This document shows, piece by piece, positions 23,595 through 64,000 of a DNA stretch of 64,000 nt. Origin of the DNA: Acidobacteriota bacterium. Lineage in GTDB: Bacteria > Acidobacteriota > Terriglobia > Terriglobales > Acidobacteriaceae. The stretch spans positions 124,001 through 188,000 of the forward strand of contig JAJXWA010000002.1 in the NCBI GenBank assembly GCA_021781795.1, read 5' to 3'. The first letter of the stretch is position 1, and every line of letters starts with the position of its first letter. The notes under the pieces were generated by a model. The model did no database searches. It was not told where the DNA came from and saw only the letters and a list, made by a program, of their open reading frames with translations. A program made the position numbers and the translations under genes.

Positions 23595-23665
23595 GCCAAC
23601 CTGCGACCGACATTTACAGATTTGTAAACTTTGCCGCCGCTGCTGATGTGTAGAATCGGGCCACC

Positions 23666-56472: not shown

Positions 56473-57393
56473 ATGAAAAGTTTGCGGCTCGTTCTGATTG
56501 CGATGCTCTTAGCATTACCGTTTGCTGGAACCGCCAGCGCGCAGATCGGGATCGGAATCGGCATCGGAATTGGGCCGGCAGTTGTGCCCGTCCCTGTGGA
56601 TGATGGCCCTCCCGTTTGCTCCTGGGGCTACTACCCCTACTACCCCTACGGCTGCGCGCCGTATGGCTACTACACTCCAGACTGGTTTGTTGGCGGCGCC
56701 TTCATCGGCGCGGGTCCGTGGCTGGGCTTCGGCTGGGGTCCGGGCTGGGGCTGGGGCGGCTGGGGTGGCGGCTGGGGTTGGGGCGGCTGGGGTGACGATG
56801 ACTGGGGCGAGCACGGCTGGGGTAGAGGCGGCTGGGGTGACCGCGGCGGTTGGGGCGATCACGGCGGCTGGGGCTACGGCAACCGTGGAGGCTACAACCG
56901 TTTCGGCAATAATGGCGGATACAACCGGTTTGGCAACCAGCCTGGGAATGGGTACAACCGGTTTGGCGGTCGCAACACCTTTCAGGGTGGACCGGTGCAT
57001 AGCTTCAATGGGAACCAAGGCCGTGGTCTAGCTTCAAATGGATTCCGGAACGCCTATCCGGGCGGCCGTACCGGCGGCTTCGGTGGAAACCGGTTCGGCG
57101 GCAATGGGTACCAGGGGAACGGTTTCCGCAGCAGTAACTTCGGAGCCGGAGGCTTCCACGGAAATGGCTTCCAGGGTGGCGGCATCCGCGGTGGCAACTT
57201 TGGCGGTGGTGGCGGTGGATTCCGTGGCGGCAACTTCGGCGGAGGCGGCTTCCATGGTGGCGGCGGTGGTGGCTTCCATGGTGGTGGTGGTGGATTCCAC
57301 GGCGGCGGTGGCGGCTTCCACGGTGGTGGAGGTGGTGGATTCCACGGCGGCGGCGGCGGCTTCCACGGTGGTGGTGGCGGCGGACGCCGATAA
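56473..57393 (+). CDS. Secreted glycine-rich repeat protein with GFHGGGG repeats
   Basis: 306 residues. Signal peptide MKSLRLVLIAMLLALPFAGTASA; then G-I-G-I-G repeats, a Tyr/Pro-rich segment, Trp-Gly repeats (G-W-G-W-G-G-W-G-G), N-R-F-G-N repeats, and about seven copies of G-G-F-H-G-G-G-G near the C-terminus. Very low complexity, and about one third glycine. A strong Shine-Dalgarno (AGGAGG) suggests high expression. Histidines could bind metal; the function is unknown. A real gene judged from the signal peptide and ribosome site, despite repeats that produce long shadow ORFs on the other strand. Confidence 0.75.
   Translation: MKSLRLVLIAMLLALPFAGTASAQIGIGIGIGIGPAVVPVPVDDGPPVCSWGYYPYYPYGCAPYGYYTPDWFVGGAFIGAGPWLGFGWGPGWGWGGWGGGWGWGGWGDDDWGEHGWGRGGWGDRGGWGDHGGWGYGNRGGYNRFGNNGGYNRFGNQPGNGYNRFGGRNTFQGGPVHSFNGNQGRGLASNGFRNAYPGGRTGGFGGNRFGGNGYQGNGFRSSNFGAGGFHGNGFQGGGIRGGNFGGGGGGFRGGNFGGGGFHGGGGGGFHGGGGGFHGGGGGFHGGGGGGFHGGGGGFHGGGGGGRR
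57180..57390 (+). repeat. Degenerate tandem repeats encoding GGFHGGGG units
   Basis: About 210 bases of short GGC/GGT-rich units with the core GGCGGATTCCACGG or GGCGGCTTCCATGG, inside the glycine-rich gene. Units differ in codon choice and length (one to five Gly between Phe-His pairs), indicating expansion and contraction. Confidence 0.75.
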
Positions 57394-57506: not shown

Positions 57507-58631
57507 TCAGCGCTGCCAGTCAGGCGTGGCGAGCCCCGCCAGACGATCGGCGATCCGCGCCGCTGCATCTGGATGGGCCAGTGTCCGCGCTGCCGTACCC
57601 ATGCCGGCGAGCCGCTCTGGAGAAGCAAGGAGTCCTGTAAGCGCGACGAGCAGTTTTTCAGGACTGGACAACTCGTCCTCCGTCAACATGACCGCGGCGC
57701 CTGCCTGCACCATGGCTTCGGCATTGCGCCGCTGGTGATCGTCTGCGGCCGCCGCAAACGGGACGAGCAGCGATGGCTTTCCGGCGGCGGCCAACTCGGC
57801 CACGGTGGAGGCTCCACCACGCGCCATCACCAGATTTGACCTTGCAAATCGCATCGGCATGTCCTCTAAAAATGCACTCACCTGCCAGCGCGCGGGATCG
57901 GCTCCCGTAGCGGCATACGCAGCTTGCGTCGTCTCAGCGTGCCGCGCCCCGCACTGGTGCAGTATCGTCAACCCTGGAACCGAAGCAAGCAACTCCGTGA
58001 GAATCTGTGGCAACGTGACGTTGAAGAGCCACGCGCCCTGCGATCCGCCAAAAATCAGCAGATGCGGTGATTGCGGAGGCCGAGGCTCCAACTGGAAAAA
58101 CTCCGGACGGACCGGAATCCCGGTCACCTCGGGCTTGTGAAACCATCGTGCGGCTGCGGGAAAATTGACGGCTGCCGCCTGCACCCACTTGCCCACGATC
58201 CGATTCGCCATGCCAGGCATTGCATTCGGCTCAAAAGCCATAGTGGGCACTTTCATCAGGAGGCCGGCGGCCATGGCGGGACCGGATGCGTAGCCACCTA
58301 CGCCAAAGACCACACTCGGGTTGAACTCGTGGATGATGTTTCGGCAAGCCATTACGCTGCGCGGCAAATCCAGTAAGGTCCGGATTCGGGTGGCCAGCGA
58401 AACGCGATTCAGAGGCCCAACTTCCACCATGCGCAGTGCAAAGCCCGCTTCCGGCACCAGACGGCCTTCCATGCCGCGCGCGGTTCCCACAAACAAAACC
58501 TCTGCACGATGCCGCGCGACCAGCTCGCGCGCAACCGCCAGAGCGGGGATGATATGCCCGCCTGTTCCACCGCCCGCTATCAGCACACGCAAACTGGTCA
58601 ACGAGACGCCTCTCATCGGATTCTGCGCCAT
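57507..58631 (-). CDS. murG: MurG lipid II synthase
   Basis: About 374 residues. N-terminal GGGTGGHIIPALAVA (first glycine-rich loop), GVGGYASGPAM, and the C-terminal UDP-GlcNAc site region with ARGGASTVAELAAAGKPSLLVPF. It transfers GlcNAc to lipid I. Starts: ATG 58631, ATG 58616, or TTG 58601 (the last has AGAGG 7 bases upstream). Confidence 0.94.
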   Translation of the reverse strand: MAQNPMRGVSLTSLRVLIAGGGTGGHIIPALAVARELVARHRAEVLFVGTARGMEGRLVPEAGFALRMVEVGPLNRVSLATRIRTLLDLPRSVMACRNIIHEFNPSVVFGVGGYASGPAMAAGLLMKVPTMAFEPNAMPGMANRIVGKWVQAAAVNFPAAARWFHKPEVTGIPVRPEFFQLEPRPPQSPHLLIFGGSQGAWLFNVTLPQILTELLASVPGLTILHQCGARHAETTQAAYAATGADPARWQVSAFLEDMPMRFARSNLVMARGGASTVAELAAAGKPSLLVPFAAAADDHQRRNAEAMVQAGAAVMLTEDELSSPEKLLVALTGLLASPERLAGMGTAARTLAHPDAAARIADRLAGLATPDWQR

Positions 58632-58734
58632 ATGACGTACTTTCAACTCGCCGGGTCTCTATTCATCAGGAGCGCAACTCGCCTCATCCTGGCACGGCAG
58701 CGCAATCCGATGCTCAAGCTGAGTCGCGCCAATT

Positions 58735-59829
58735 TCAGTCCACCTGCTTGGAGATGTTCAGGAGGATTCCAATACTGGCCAGAGTGCAGAAGATGGATGT
58801 GCCCCCTGAGGAGATCAGCGGCAGGGGAATGCCTTTGGTAGGAAGCAGCGAAAGTACCACGCTGATGTTGAAAAATGCCTGGAGAAGAATCGCTGTCGTA
58901 ATGCCGAAGGCAATCAGGCGGCCGAATGGATCCCGAATCTTATACGCGGTTCGGAGGCCGCGAAAGCCCAGCACAAGGAAGAGAATCAATAGCAGCATAG
59001 CACCGGCAAACCCCAGCTCCTCGCCAATATTGGCAAAGATAAAGTCGGTCGAGGCCTCAGGGAGATAGAAGAGCTTCTGCATACCCTCCATAAAGCCGCG
59101 ACCAAACCATCCGCCCGTGCCTACGGCAATCAGGGACTGGTTGATATGAAAGCCAGCACCCATGGGATCTGAATCGGGATGGAGGAACACGAGCATGCGC
59201 TGCCTGCGCCACGCCACCCAGAACAGCATGAACGCCAGCACGGGAGCGGCGCCCGCAGCCGCAATCAAGAGATACTTCCACTCCATGCCGGCGAGCAGCA
59301 GCATCATGGCGGTGACGCCAGCAAGCACAAGCGCCGTTCCAAGATCCGGTTGCTTGAGGATGAGCACGATGAAGACCAGCGGCACGATGGCCGCACGCAG
59401 CAACGTGTTTTTCCAATCGTTCATCGAACCAAGGCGGGTGTGAAGAAACCAGGCCAGAAAGAGAATCAGAACCGGCTTTGCGATTTCAGAAGGCTGAAAT
59501 GTGAAAAGGCCACCGAAGCGAATCCACCGGTGGGTATTATGCGAATTCCGAAAAAAGAACACCATCACCAACAGCACGGTTGTGGCTGAAGTAGCAGCGA
59601 AAATGATCCGAGGTGACTTATAGCGCTTGTAGTCGATCGTCATCAGCCAGACCATACAAAAGACGCCCCCCAAGGCCCAGCCGACCTGCTTTCCGACGAT
59701 TGCGTAAGGATTATGAAATTGATCCTGGGCGACGACCGCGGACGCGGAAAACACCATCGCCAGGCCGTAGACCACAAGCACCAGCGTGATGAAGAAAATC
59801 CACTTGTCGACGCCTACGCGTTTTGCCAT
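58735..59829 (-). CDS. ftsW: FtsW lipid II polymerase/divisome membrane protein
   Basis: 364 residues with about ten TM helices. SEDS-family motifs include FTFQPSEIAK and L-K-Q-P-D-L-G-T-A, and the C-terminal L-P-L-I-S-S-G-G-T-S. SEDS proteins polymerise glycan strands during septation with a class B PBP. It overlaps the murD stop by 16 bases. RodA is the alternative, but the cluster position favours FtsW. Confidence 0.93.
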   Translation of the reverse strand: MAKRVGVDKWIFFITLVLVVYGLAMVFSASAVVAQDQFHNPYAIVGKQVGWALGGVFCMVWLMTIDYKRYKSPRIIFAATSATTVLLVMVFFFRNSHNTHRWIRFGGLFTFQPSEIAKPVLILFLAWFLHTRLGSMNDWKNTLLRAAIVPLVFIVLILKQPDLGTALVLAGVTAMMLLLAGMEWKYLLIAAAGAAPVLAFMLFWVAWRRQRMLVFLHPDSDPMGAGFHINQSLIAVGTGGWFGRGFMEGMQKLFYLPEASTDFIFANIGEELGFAGAMLLLILFLVLGFRGLRTAYKIRDPFGRLIAFGITTAILLQAFFNISVVLSLLPTKGIPLPLISSGGTSIFCTLASIGILLNISKQVD

Positions 59830-61196
59830 ACCTTCCAGCCCCGCCAGTCGTTGACAAGTTCTTTGAAAGCCCGGCCGCGATGTTCGTAGCTGTCAAACTG
59901 GTCGAAGCTCGAACAGGCAGGAGCAAGCAGCACAATTTCGCCGTGGTGTGCAGCGGATGCAGCCGCGCTCACAGCGCGCTCAAGCGTTTCGCACGAGTGT
60001 AGCGGCACCACACCGCGCAAGTGAGATTCGATCTTGGCTGCCGCGGAGCCAATTGTGTAGACAGCACGGACGCGTTCCCGCAGCAACGGCGAAAGCTGTG
60101 TGTAATCGGAGTTCTTATCCTTGCCGCCGAGAATCAGATGAATGCCACCTGAAAATGCCGCGATCGCTTTTGCAGTTGCGTCCACGTTGGTGGCCTTGGA
60201 GTCGTTGTAAAACTCGACGCCATTCAACGTGGCCACATATTCCAATCTGTGCTCGACCGCTTTGAATTTCTCAATGGCTCGGCGAATCTCGTCCGCCGGA
60301 GCGCCCGCCAATCTGGCCGCACAAATCGCAGCCATTACGTTCTCGACATTGTGTTCGCCTTTGAGCGGAATCGCGCTGAGTGGGATAATGTGCTCCACGG
60401 CGCCGTCGCGGACTCCGCGGTATACGATCGCGCCCTCTTCGATCCATGCCCCGCGCGGAACGGAATGCTCCATCGAAAACCAGTACACCGGCGCCGCCGA
60501 GCGCGCTGCAGAAGCAGCGGTTCGGACGTTGTCGGCGTTCAGCACCAGAGCGTCTGAGGCTGCCTGAGCGGCAAAAATCCGCTCCTTGGCCATTGCATAG
60601 TTCTCAAAGGTTCCGTGGCGATCGAGATGGTCGGGCGTGATGTTCAAAATCACGGCGATGTTTGGATGGAACTCCTCGGTGGTCTCCAGTTGGAAGCTTG
60701 ATACTTCCAGTACCGACCAGGTCTCGTCCGTACTCTCATCAATCAGAGACACGACAGGCACACCGATGTTGCCGCCCACCAAAGTACGAAACCCGGAAGC
60801 ATCGAGGATCTCGCCAAGAAGCGCCGTCGTGGTCGTCTTGCCGTTGGACCCCGTGATTGCCGCGAGCTTTCCTTTGAGGAAGCGTGCGGCCAGCTCCAGT
60901 TCGCCAATCACGGGCAGCCCGAAACTCTTCACCTGAACCAGTTCGGGCGTGTCCAGCGAAACCCCTGGACTGACGACGATCAGGTCCTGCCGCCGGAAGG
61001 TCAGCAGACCGTGGCCACCTGTCTCGACCATAATGCCCTCTTCCAGCAGGGCGGGAATATCCCTGGCGAGAGCTTCCGCGCTGCGCACATCCGACACGGT
61101 CACCTGTGCGCCACGGCGGCGCAAAAACAAAGCCGCGGCCAGACCAGACTTGCCCAGTCCCACGACCAGAACTTTTTTCCCTTTCAGCTCCATCAT
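59814..61196 (-). CDS. murD: UDP-N-acetylmuramoylalanine-D-glutamate ligase MurD
   Basis: 460 residues. N-terminal VVGLGKSGLAAALFL (Rossmann), the ATP loop G-S-N-G-K-T-T-T-T, the substrate/lysine region and the C-terminal D-S-K-A-T-N-V-D-A-T motif. Adds D-Glu to UDP-MurNAc-Ala. It overlaps ftsW downstream and follows mraY by 67 bases. Confidence 0.95.
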   Translation of the reverse strand: MMELKGKKVLVVGLGKSGLAAALFLRRRGAQVTVSDVRSAEALARDIPALLEEGIMVETGGHGLLTFRRQDLIVVSPGVSLDTPELVQVKSFGLPVIGELELAARFLKGKLAAITGSNGKTTTTALLGEILDASGFRTLVGGNIGVPVVSLIDESTDETWSVLEVSSFQLETTEEFHPNIAVILNITPDHLDRHGTFENYAMAKERIFAAQAASDALVLNADNVRTAASAARSAAPVYWFSMEHSVPRGAWIEEGAIVYRGVRDGAVEHIIPLSAIPLKGEHNVENVMAAICAARLAGAPADEIRRAIEKFKAVEHRLEYVATLNGVEFYNDSKATNVDATAKAIAAFSGGIHLILGGKDKNSDYTQLSPLLRERVRAVYTIGSAAAKIESHLRGVVPLHSCETLERAVSAAASAAHHGEIVLLAPACSSFDQFDSYEHRGRAFKELVNDWRGWKVWQNA

Positions 61197-61263
61197 TGCG
61201 GTTGTTCCTCAGGCCCCTCGGATGACTCTATTGTGCATCGGCGGAGGGCTGGTGCGCTTGCGC

Positions 61264-62412
61264 TCAACGGAGTTTGAGCGTAGTAAGAGCAAACAGTGCA
61301 AACACTAGCGCGCCAATCCAAAAGCGGGCAATAACCTTGGATTCATGCCAACCCAACTGCTCAAAGTGATGGTGTAAAGGCGCCATCCTGAAAATACGCT
61401 TCTTGTTGCGCAGCTTGTAGCTGCCCACCTGCAGCATCACGGATAGAGCCTCAAGAATGAAAATCCCGCCGATGAAAGGCAGTAGCAGTTCCTGCCGTAT
61501 GATGACCGCGACTGTGCCAATCGCCCCGCCCAGCGCGAGCGATCCTACATCGCCCATAAAGATCTCAGCGGGGTGGGCGTTGTACCAGAGAAATCCGATT
61601 GAGGCCCCGACCATCGCTCCGCAGAAGACCGTCAGCTCACCTACCATCGGCATGCGCTCGAGTTCCAGGTAATCCGCGAAAACCACATGACCGCTCACAT
61701 AGGTCAGCACGGCCAATGCCGCCGAGGCGATGATGGTGCATCCAATCGCCAGACCGTCCAGACCGTCGGTAAGATTCACGGCATTCGTTGACCCCATCAG
61801 AACAAAGATGACAAAAGCCACAAATGGCAGAAAGGCCAGCCAGCCCAAGTGCGGGAAGCTGCCAATCCAATGCCATTGCAGATCCGGACGCCAGCTTTTG
61901 ACGAACGGCACCATCAAGGTTGTCGAAAAAATCTTGAATTGCGTGAGCACGGCTAGCGCCACGGCGACGGCCATCGCGGCCAGGGTTTGCCAGAAGAGCT
62001 TGGCGCGTGCAGTGAGTCCAAGGCTGCGGCGCTGCACCACTTTGATGTAGTCGTCGGCAAAGCCGATAGCTCCAAAGGCAAGGGTCGAGATAACAACAAC
62101 CCACACAAACGGATTTGCAGGATCGGACCAGAGGATCGTCGGCAGCAGAATCGCGATTACGATGAGAACCCCGCCCATCGTAGGCGTTCCCGATTTCTTC
62201 TTATGCGACTGCGGACCCTCTTCGCGGATGTATTGGCCAATCTGAAACTCGCGGAGCTTCTCAATCACATACGGCCCAATCAACAGGCCAATCAGCAACG
62301 CCGTCAGCGACGCAAACGCAGTGCGAAAGGTCAGGTAGCGGAAGATGCGAAACGGGTGGAAAAACGGATAAAGCTTTTGGTAGAGCAGCCAGTAAAGCAA
62401 GTGGCCTCCCAA
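61264..62412 (-). CDS. mraY: MraY phospho-MurNAc-pentapeptide transferase
   Basis: 382 residues with about ten TM helices. Motifs: [12 protein letters not shown] (DDxxK-like), [13 protein letters not shown] and M-A-P-L-H-H-H-F-E. It makes lipid I on undecaprenyl phosphate. It follows the metallo-beta-lactamase gene by 78 bases. Confidence 0.95.
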
Positions 62413-62490
62413 GCCGAATGGACACAGACGTTCACGATGATTCTACAAGGTGGCGACAGCATCGGCTGTGGATGGCTTAACAGGATGCGA

Positions 62491-63369
62491 TCAGCGGCTG
62501 CGCGCGCTTTGGCGGTGGTACTCGGCCTCAAATGCCCGCTTCCGGTCTGCAATGTACTCGCGATAGCCAGCAGGGTCAATAAAGGCGTCATGATCCCCGC
62601 CCTTCCACCGGGCATATTTTCCTGGCAAGTCGAAGTATCCTCCATGCGCGCCGAGGAAAATGTCGCACTGGAGGCTGGACAACAATCTGAACCCTTCGCG
62701 ATAGTCCGTTGCTATCGACGGATACGCCCGATTTCCGACAAGCTTGTATCCGGGGTTCACATTTGGACTTCCAACGATGACCACGTGCTCCACGCGACCA
62801 GCTTCTTGCTCGTCGAGTGTCCAGGTTGTTGTACCTTTCGTGTGCCCGCCGGTCAGGTGCGCTGTGAGCACCGTACCGCCAAGGCTCACTGTGTCGCCAT
62901 CGTGGAGCACGCGGTCGACGTGCGAAGCCGGATACTGCATGGACTTGTCACTCCCGTACTGGAAGTCAGCCTTACCGCCTGATTCGACGACAGCGACATC
63001 CTCGCTCATGACTTCATATTTCGCTCCGGTCCTACGCAAAATCGCCGCACTGCCCGCGCAGTGGTCATAGTGAGCGTGACTGATGAGCAGGACCTTGATA
63101 TCACTGAACTGAAATCCCAACGACTCCACGCTCCTGCGAATGAGCGGCACAGAAGACACAAGGCTGCTGTTGATCAGGATGTCGCCCTTTGGCGTGACGA
63201 TCAGATACGAAGCCAGATCCTCACTGCCCACGTAGTACAGATTGCCGGCAATGCGAAATGCGGGAAAGGGGGTTGTCCATGATGCCGGCAAGGCCAGTGC
63301 AGGTCGATTGAACGCCAGGGGCAGCACAGCCAGAACGGCACAGAGCATCGCAAACTGAAGGCGTCTCAA
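62491..63369 (-). CDS. Subclass B3 metallo-beta-lactamase inside the mur cluster
   Basis: 292 residues. From the TTG start at 63369 it has a basic signal peptide (RRLQFAM, hydrophobic core, cleavage near ALALP). The B3 metal ligands are all visible: His98 and His100 (zinc 1), Asp102 and His103 (zinc 2), His176 and His242. The motif H-A-H-Y-D-H and the later G-G-H-T and G-A-H-G-G-Y fit subclass B3, and a Ser at the position normally Cys in B1 enzymes is in G-S-P-N. Such enzymes hydrolyse beta-lactams in the periplasm; activity is not proven by sequence. The TTG overlaps the murF stop (TTGA). An upstream ATG at 63483 would overlap murF by 118 bases and give a very basic leader. Confidence 0.85.
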   Translation of the reverse strand: MRRLQFAMLCAVLAVLPLAFNRPALALPASWTTPFPAFRIAGNLYYVGSEDLASYLIVTPKGDILINSSLVSSVPLIRRSVESLGFQFSDIKVLLISHAHYDHCAGSAAILRRTGAKYEVMSEDVAVVESGGKADFQYGSDKSMQYPASHVDRVLHDGDTVSLGGTVLTAHLTGGHTKGTTTWTLDEQEAGRVEHVVIVGSPNVNPGYKLVGNRAYPSIATDYREGFRLLSSLQCDIFLGAHGGYFDLPGKYARWKGGDHDAFIDPAGYREYIADRKRAFEAEYHRQSARSR

Positions 63370-64000
63370 TGTCCTGCGCTTTCTGTGGCGCCGGTAATCG
63401 CCTGTACAGCTCGCTCGAGGCGTACGCCTCTTGATCCTTTCACGAGTACCACGTCGCCCTTGCGCAGGTTTGCCTGCAGCCATTTTCCTGCTGCATCAGC
63501 ATCAGGAAGAAACAAGGATGCGACGCCGGCCGAACACGCCGCAGTCGCAAGATGCTCCGCGTTGCCGCCTACCCCAACCACGCAATCCAGGCCCGCATCT
63601 GCCGCAGCCCGCCCGCAGGCTGCGTGCAGCGCTGGGCTATGTTCACCCAGTTCCAGCATTTCTCCGGCGACAAGAATGCGCCGCACTGCGGATCGCGTCG
63701 ACAGCGTGCGAATCATCGAACGGAGCGCCTCAGGATTGGAGTTGTAGCAATCATTCAAGACCACGGCTCCTCCAATCTCAATGACTTCTCCGCGCTTGTC
63801 CCCAGGCGTCAGTGACTCCAGCGCACGGACCGCCTCGTCCAGTTGCACGCCGGCTTCCAGCGCCACGGCCAGACCCGCCATGGCATTCGTCCCGTTGTGA
63901 GCGCCGAGAAGGTGCAGAGTCATCCAGCCTTCCCGTGCCTGTGCACTATAGCAGACGTGCAGTCCCGATTCGTCTTCGCTGATCGCCACCATTTGCGGAT
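63366..64000 (-). CDS. murF: MurF (C-terminal part, runs off the window)
   Basis: About 211 codons read from the window edge to TGA. V-L-N-D-C-Y-N-S-N-P-E-A and A-G-E-M-L-E-L-G-E-H-S-P match the C-terminal region of UDP-MurNAc-tripeptide-D-alanyl-D-alanine ligase; V-K-G-S-R-G-V-R-L-E is the family's terminal motif. The ATP-binding loop lies beyond position 64000. Its stop overlaps the start of the metallo-beta-lactamase gene. Confidence 0.92.
   Translation of the reverse strand, partial: PQMVAISEDESGLHVCYSAQAREGWMTLHLLGAHNGTNAMAGLAVALEAGVQLDEAVRALESLTPGDKRGEVIEIGGAVVLNDCYNSNPEALRSMIRTLSTRSAVRRILVAGEMLELGEHSPALHAACGRAAADAGLDCVVGVGGNAEHLATAACSAGVASLFLPDADAAGKWLQANLRKGDVVLVKGSRGVRLERAVQAITGATESAGH

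Follow-up and report, generated by a model that had tools for sequence, protein, structure and literature searches.

A subclass B3 metallo-beta-lactamase gene overlapping murF in the cell wall cluster of a genus of Acidobacteriaceae

The window analysed here is the whole stretch of 64,000 nucleotides taken from an Acidobacteriota bacterium of the family Acidobacteriaceae (contig JAJXWA010000002.1), and close to its end it carries on the reverse strand a gene, here called bla, which encodes a subclass B3 metallo-beta-lactamase and starts on the stop codon of murF. Taken together, the evidence makes it likely that a B3 lactamase gene was captured once as the last cistron of a wall operon, where it would be translationally coupled to murF and would provide a growth-linked resistance with which some lineages can dispense. 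The elements that carry this reading are the following:

62491..63369, reverse strand: bla, subclass B3 metallo-beta-lactamase of 292 amino acids read from a TTG codon (open reading frame, profile and ligand evidence)
63366..63369, reverse strand: TTGA, in which the bla start codon runs into the murF stop, with the Shine-Dalgarno-like bases CAGGA just upstream
63366..63998, reverse strand: 3' part of murF, a gene that extends beyond the window end and whose start, further along the contig, overlaps murE

An earlier note, made from the letters of this DNA, had described a signal-peptide protein with a complete set of B3 zinc ligands, and both points were confirmed: all six residues (H98, H100, D102, H103, H176 and H242) are present in the open reading frame, and its N-terminus is signal-peptide-like by a simple rule, which holds for 47 of 55 loci including the window, so that export is predicted. 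The ligand pattern, which we take to be H/Q116-x-H118-x-D120-H121, H196 and H263 in standard numbering, is also found in 103 relatives, where position 116 is H in 101 and Q in 2, the following four ligands are kept in all 103, and H263 is kept in 99, with 4 gaps. Moreover, the window protein scores 310.7 bits with the curated B3 profile NF033105 (cut-off 240) and has a metallo-beta-lactamase fold of the B3 type by structural comparison; the B3 assignment is far beyond chance. A non-lactamase of the HARLDQ type was rejected because of the HAHYDH motif, the HARLDQ profile giving 215.6 against a cut-off of 350. Among known enzymes, FEZ-1 from Legionella gormanii, also of subclass B3, has the same active site and fold, although the 343.3 bits that the window protein reaches with the FEZ family profile NF000216 stay below the curated cut-off of 600 and leave it outside that family; LRA-12, a B3 enzyme from a soil metagenome, is 35% identical to it. 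In this regard, the bla product would be a periplasmic di-zinc beta-lactamase of the FEZ-1 type. The two proteins in which Gln replaces the first zinc-ligand His (L129 of genome G179 and L162 of G044) resemble B3-Q enzymes in this respect. Two other bla rows, L143 (G198) and L044, contain an in-frame stop and represent either decaying genes or sequence errors of the assemblies.

A close view of the junction shows that the bla TTG (63369-63367) and the murF stop TGA (63368-63366) share four bases, just as first read. Since stop and start overlap in this way, ribosomes ending murF would be handed on to bla and re-start there. The same 4-base NTGA overlap, with ATG, GTG or TTG as start, was found in 37 of the 55 murF-bla junctions read (36 of 52 from the same genus, the remaining 3 coming from other genera), with Shine-Dalgarno-like bases within reach in 27 of the 37. 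Upstream, the contig runs in the order mraZ, rsmH, ftsL, an ftsI-like transpeptidase gene that includes a PASTA domain, murE, murF and bla. From mraZ down to murE the genes are 25-28 bases apart (measured to the longest frames), and both murE-murF and murF-bla overlap by 4 bases. MraZ and FtsL are under the NCBIfam cut-offs and over those of Pfam; the transpeptidase, which reaches no NCBIfam cut-off, is named ftsI because of its Pfam Transpeptidase match (E 3.4e-73) and its position in the cluster. Thus bla sits in an ordered division and cell wall (dcw) cluster, on the cluster strand and overlapping or abutting its neighbours. With this arrangement, translation of the operon that encodes the septal transpeptidase, a target of beta-lactams, and the precursor ligases would always yield the enzyme as well, and once exported it would hydrolyse beta-lactams in the periplasm. 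Its likeliest job may be a constant, growth-coupled hydrolysis of soil beta-lactams, with a dose tied to the transpeptidase operon.

The comparison of mur neighbourhoods proposed in the earlier note, for which absence of the gene from this site in related genomes would speak against a housekeeping role, gave a divided answer. A B3 match at E <= 2.1e-34 occurs in 55 of 80 genomes of the same genus, and in 52 of these 55 murF is immediately followed by the gene in the same orientation; in the other three it is near a contig start (G197 and G210) or on another contig than murF (G221). Such a recurrence of the order in 52 of 80 genomes rules out a chance open reading frame or a misassembly at the window end. 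On the other hand, bla is absent behind murF in 19 genomes of the genus. The 25 genomes that gave no such B3 match comprise 11 with murF and mraY on one contig, 93-1308 bases between the two matches and no bla match there, 8 in which the 1 to 1.9 kb read after murF is different sequence with at most weak, short bla matches, and 6 that were not judged. One genome, G208, has two bla copies on contigs C340 and C287, each by a piece of mraY, perhaps from two strains mixed in the assembly. Beyond the genus, 47 of 150 family genomes searched contain a B3 match at E <= 3.1e-39, and by coordinates only 5 of these 47, from three genera, have it beside murF (3 not judged), so the linkage is not a feature of the family at large. 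Among 68 named loci murF is directly upstream in 25, all of them labelled Acidobacteria or its families.

How the gene reached this place was approached with a tree of 103 B3 rows (L071, L075 and L076 left out), in which the 55 murF-linked loci are represented by 53 rows after removal of L139 and L152, with bla products under 150 amino acids. All 53 fall in one clade of 57 rows (SH-like approximate likelihood-ratio support, SH-aLRT, 98) together with the copies of G197, G210, G221 and G044 (L162), and with midpoint rooting this clade is nested among 46 rows located elsewhere, mostly in acidobacterial genomes. Because the murF-linked copies form a single nested clade, a member of a dispersed family most likely came to lie beside murF only once, in a capture that would date to the ancestor of the genus and at least two neighbouring genera, and the word 'ancestral', as first applied to the gene, is not supported. 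The dispersed relatives, such as those of Acidobacteriales 59-55 (L032), Edaphobacter lichenicola (L040/L050), Granulicella sp. S190 (L042) and Acidobacterium sp. S8 (L057), have the same ligands and differ in their surroundings: the flanking DNA fetched gave no match to murF, mraY, murD, ftsW or murG. Moreover, distances of bla and murF are correlated over 51 rows (Mantel r 0.63, with 0 of 999 permutations as high; L108 and L161 were dropped as long branches).

The murF tree, from which G162 and G174 were omitted as they have murF fragments only, requires 11 changes of the presence label over the genus and the three carriers from other genera, and the 17 bla-less rows in it are rejected as one clade (p-AU 0.0004, in an approximately unbiased test run after the tree had been seen). 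A single bla clade and 11 label changes together point to repeated loss. In this line, a search for remnants in bla-less genomes, with queries limited to the final 780 bases of bla from 49 of the 55 loci, revealed a scar in G167, where 48 bases are 87.5% identical to the 3' end of the G156 bla (E 1.4e-11); G167 pairs with the bla-bearing G156 on the murF tree (SH-aLRT 95). Many blastn matches to L115 and L147 were set aside, as they fall in the first 92 bases of these two coding sequences, whose assumed starts lie inside murF. A 38-base match in G176 (E 3e-7) was not counted as a scar either, because it corresponds to the ends of three long bla frames which apparently extend into the mraY leader, and weak matches of 25-57 bases (E 1.6e-4 to 0.007) in L178, L182, L094 and L196 were neither accepted nor rejected. 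The ratio of nonsynonymous to synonymous rates (dN/dS) in twelve near pairs was 0.04-0.39 for bla and 0.04-0.18 for murF (11 values), and in the two pairs with the window synonymous distances were saturated. These sequence comparisons indicate that bla is under purifying selection, and that it is useful and not essential: a gene kept by selection would have been dispensable and lost several times. A recent mobile gene was discarded, since the nearest plasmid homologues are only 40-42% identical and the GC content at third codon positions of bla (0.66) is within the 0.62-0.69 of its neighbours.

The same data bear on the role first proposed, in which the B3 protein would be a housekeeping enzyme acting on a peptidoglycan-derived or other envelope substrate, hence its place behind murF, and beta-lactam hydrolysis would be a side activity. 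The linkage in 52 of the 55 bla-bearing genomes, the purifying selection and the predicted export to the wall compartment agree with such a role, whereas the 19 genomes that do without the gene behind murF, 17 of them tested and not forming one clade, and the deletion scar do not; relatives that fall outside the clade have other locations, and among 22 such loci no neighbour family recurred in 3 or more (by a rough open-reading-frame method), and present sequence analysis gave no hint of muropeptides as substrates. As bla is missing repeatedly, in several lineages, and its ligands and fold match those of FEZ-1, we regard a housekeeping function as very unlikely.

The genes of the cluster that follow bla, and the box that precedes them, are these:

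62439..62448, reverse strand: TTGTAGAATC, promoter-like box of the extended -10 type in the bla-mraY gap, kept in 47 of the 52 mraY leaders
61264..62400, reverse strand: mraY, with a TTG start at 62400 behind GGAGGCCAC (profile match and conserved leader)
59814..61196, reverse strand: murD, downstream wall-cluster gene, named by sequence, with homologues in the same order
58735..59829, reverse strand: ftsW, likewise a downstream wall-cluster gene, named by sequence, with homologues in the same order
57507..58646, reverse strand: murG, likewise a downstream wall-cluster gene, named by sequence, with homologues in the same order

Beside murG, an open reading frame on the forward strand (56473-57393) is glycine-rich and of low complexity, with GGGGFHGG repeats. 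The strand and order of mraY behind bla are as originally described; the distance of 78 bases is not, since it was counted from a TTG at 62412 that most relatives do not keep. Because relatives conserve GGAGGCC(A/C)(C/T)TTG, the start is most likely the TTG at 62400, which leaves a gap of 90 bases. The box in this gap follows the pattern T[AT]?GTA[AG]AATC in the 47 leaders, against 0.005 of 52 in letter-shuffled ones, a contrast that shows conservation and not independent matches because the leaders are related by descent. It is found in 27 of 29 leaders preceded by bla, 8 of 10 where bla is absent and 12 of 13 where mraY is elsewhere, and in 43 of the 47 cases it stands 43-45 bases before the third mraY codon, some 38 before the start codon. 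On the coding strand of the 9.7 kb that begin upstream of mraZ and reach the mraY start, its single occurrence is the one in this gap, and judging from this conservation TGTARAATC may be a usable promoter motif for the genus. In the whole window 2 copies of TGTARAATC were found and 0.36 expected, the second lying at 23649-23657 on the forward strand.

A further line of evidence comes from the genomes where the cluster is split. Of the 52 genomes of the genus that have murF-bla, 25 have mraY no more than 250 bases further on and 4 have it within 1,771 bases; in 18 the contig continues past bla for 2.4-120 kb without any mraY (5 not judged). In the cultured Occallatibacter savannae AB23 (L069), which carries murF-bla, mraY comes 680 bases later. 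On the murF tree (64 rows) the bla-mraY split requires 6 changes. The three split loci scanned each have another gene after bla: MscS-like in L011, of the YggU family in L013 and with an alanine-racemase fold in L021. In L011 the MscS-like gene is accompanied by glycerol-3-phosphate acyltransferase and dehydrogenase genes, and by eye the wall cluster is also broken just behind bla in L015, L016, L022 and L026, with different genes after it. The mraY box and the split loci suggest that the murF unit ends with bla and that a second unit begins with mraY, which would be transcribed from its own promoter; the single murF-bla-mraY unit assumed at first is thus not supported.

A boundary between two units could also be a tolerant site, where the murF-mraY gap takes up cargo, bla is kept for resistance and its link with wall genes is meaningless. 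Indeed, in G167 and G168 the gap harbours a RES/Xre toxin-antitoxin pair, identified in G168 (L104:569-1467) by a Pfam scan as a RES-domain toxin and an Xre/MbcA/ParS antitoxin, alike by eye in G167 (L103), and adjoining the scar in the latter; gaps without bla measure 282 and 368 bases in G171 and G220, and mraY has a promoter-like box of its own. Unlinked cargo, however, should need neither the NTGA overlap kept in 36 of 52 genus loci nor the company of murF in the 18 genomes that lack mraY behind, and we consider such a passenger unlikely.

Several observations weigh against the preferred reading of a single capture followed by coupling to murF and repeated loss. The exact 4-base overlap is missing in 18 of the 55 loci, many of the genomes are fragmented, and two clade members are located away from murF, G221 on a different contig and G044 (L162) as a divergent, long-branched copy. 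The trees are of a quick kind, built without bootstrap; if only the well-supported (starred) branches are counted, the presence label has to change no more than 3 times, and tree counts alone cannot separate loss from gain. With regard to transcription, read-through from bla into mraY may occur, and the putative promoter is a conserved box only; a generic sigma-70 scan gave 2 matches where 1.0 would be expected, which is no excess, and promoter or terminator counts over 61100-64000 were near the shuffled mean.

The presence of B3 enzymes in Acidobacteria is already known: PMC7381538 describes an uncultured member of the group with the most B3 copies and uses the label B3-Q, and the origin of B3 enzymes is treated in PMC6882493. 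According to PMC3567504 and PMC12561984, the beta-lactamase AmpC is connected with wall metabolism through its induction. Expression of both AmpC and the window bla would be tied to the state of the wall, in the former by a regulator sensing wall fragments and in the latter, a metallo-enzyme, by physical linkage and a start-stop overlap. No description of a beta-lactamase within the acidobacterial mur cluster was found among the literature matches listed, whose coverage is partial, and for this reason the novelty of the placement is only a lead.

What the genus offers is a B3 gene held across much of its genomes as the last cistron, overlapping murF, of an operon for a beta-lactam target and for wall precursors. 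Chromosomal beta-lactamases are usually regarded as separately regulated or mobile. We tentatively suggest, at somewhat less than even confidence, that a beta-lactamase may here be a standing part of a wall operon, with a dose set by coupling, giving an intrinsic resistance tuned to growth without a regulator, and possibly with a second, envelope-related substrate. Related genomes devoid of bla are natural controls, and with carriers and bla-less relatives side by side a wall function of environmental beta-lactamases becomes directly testable.
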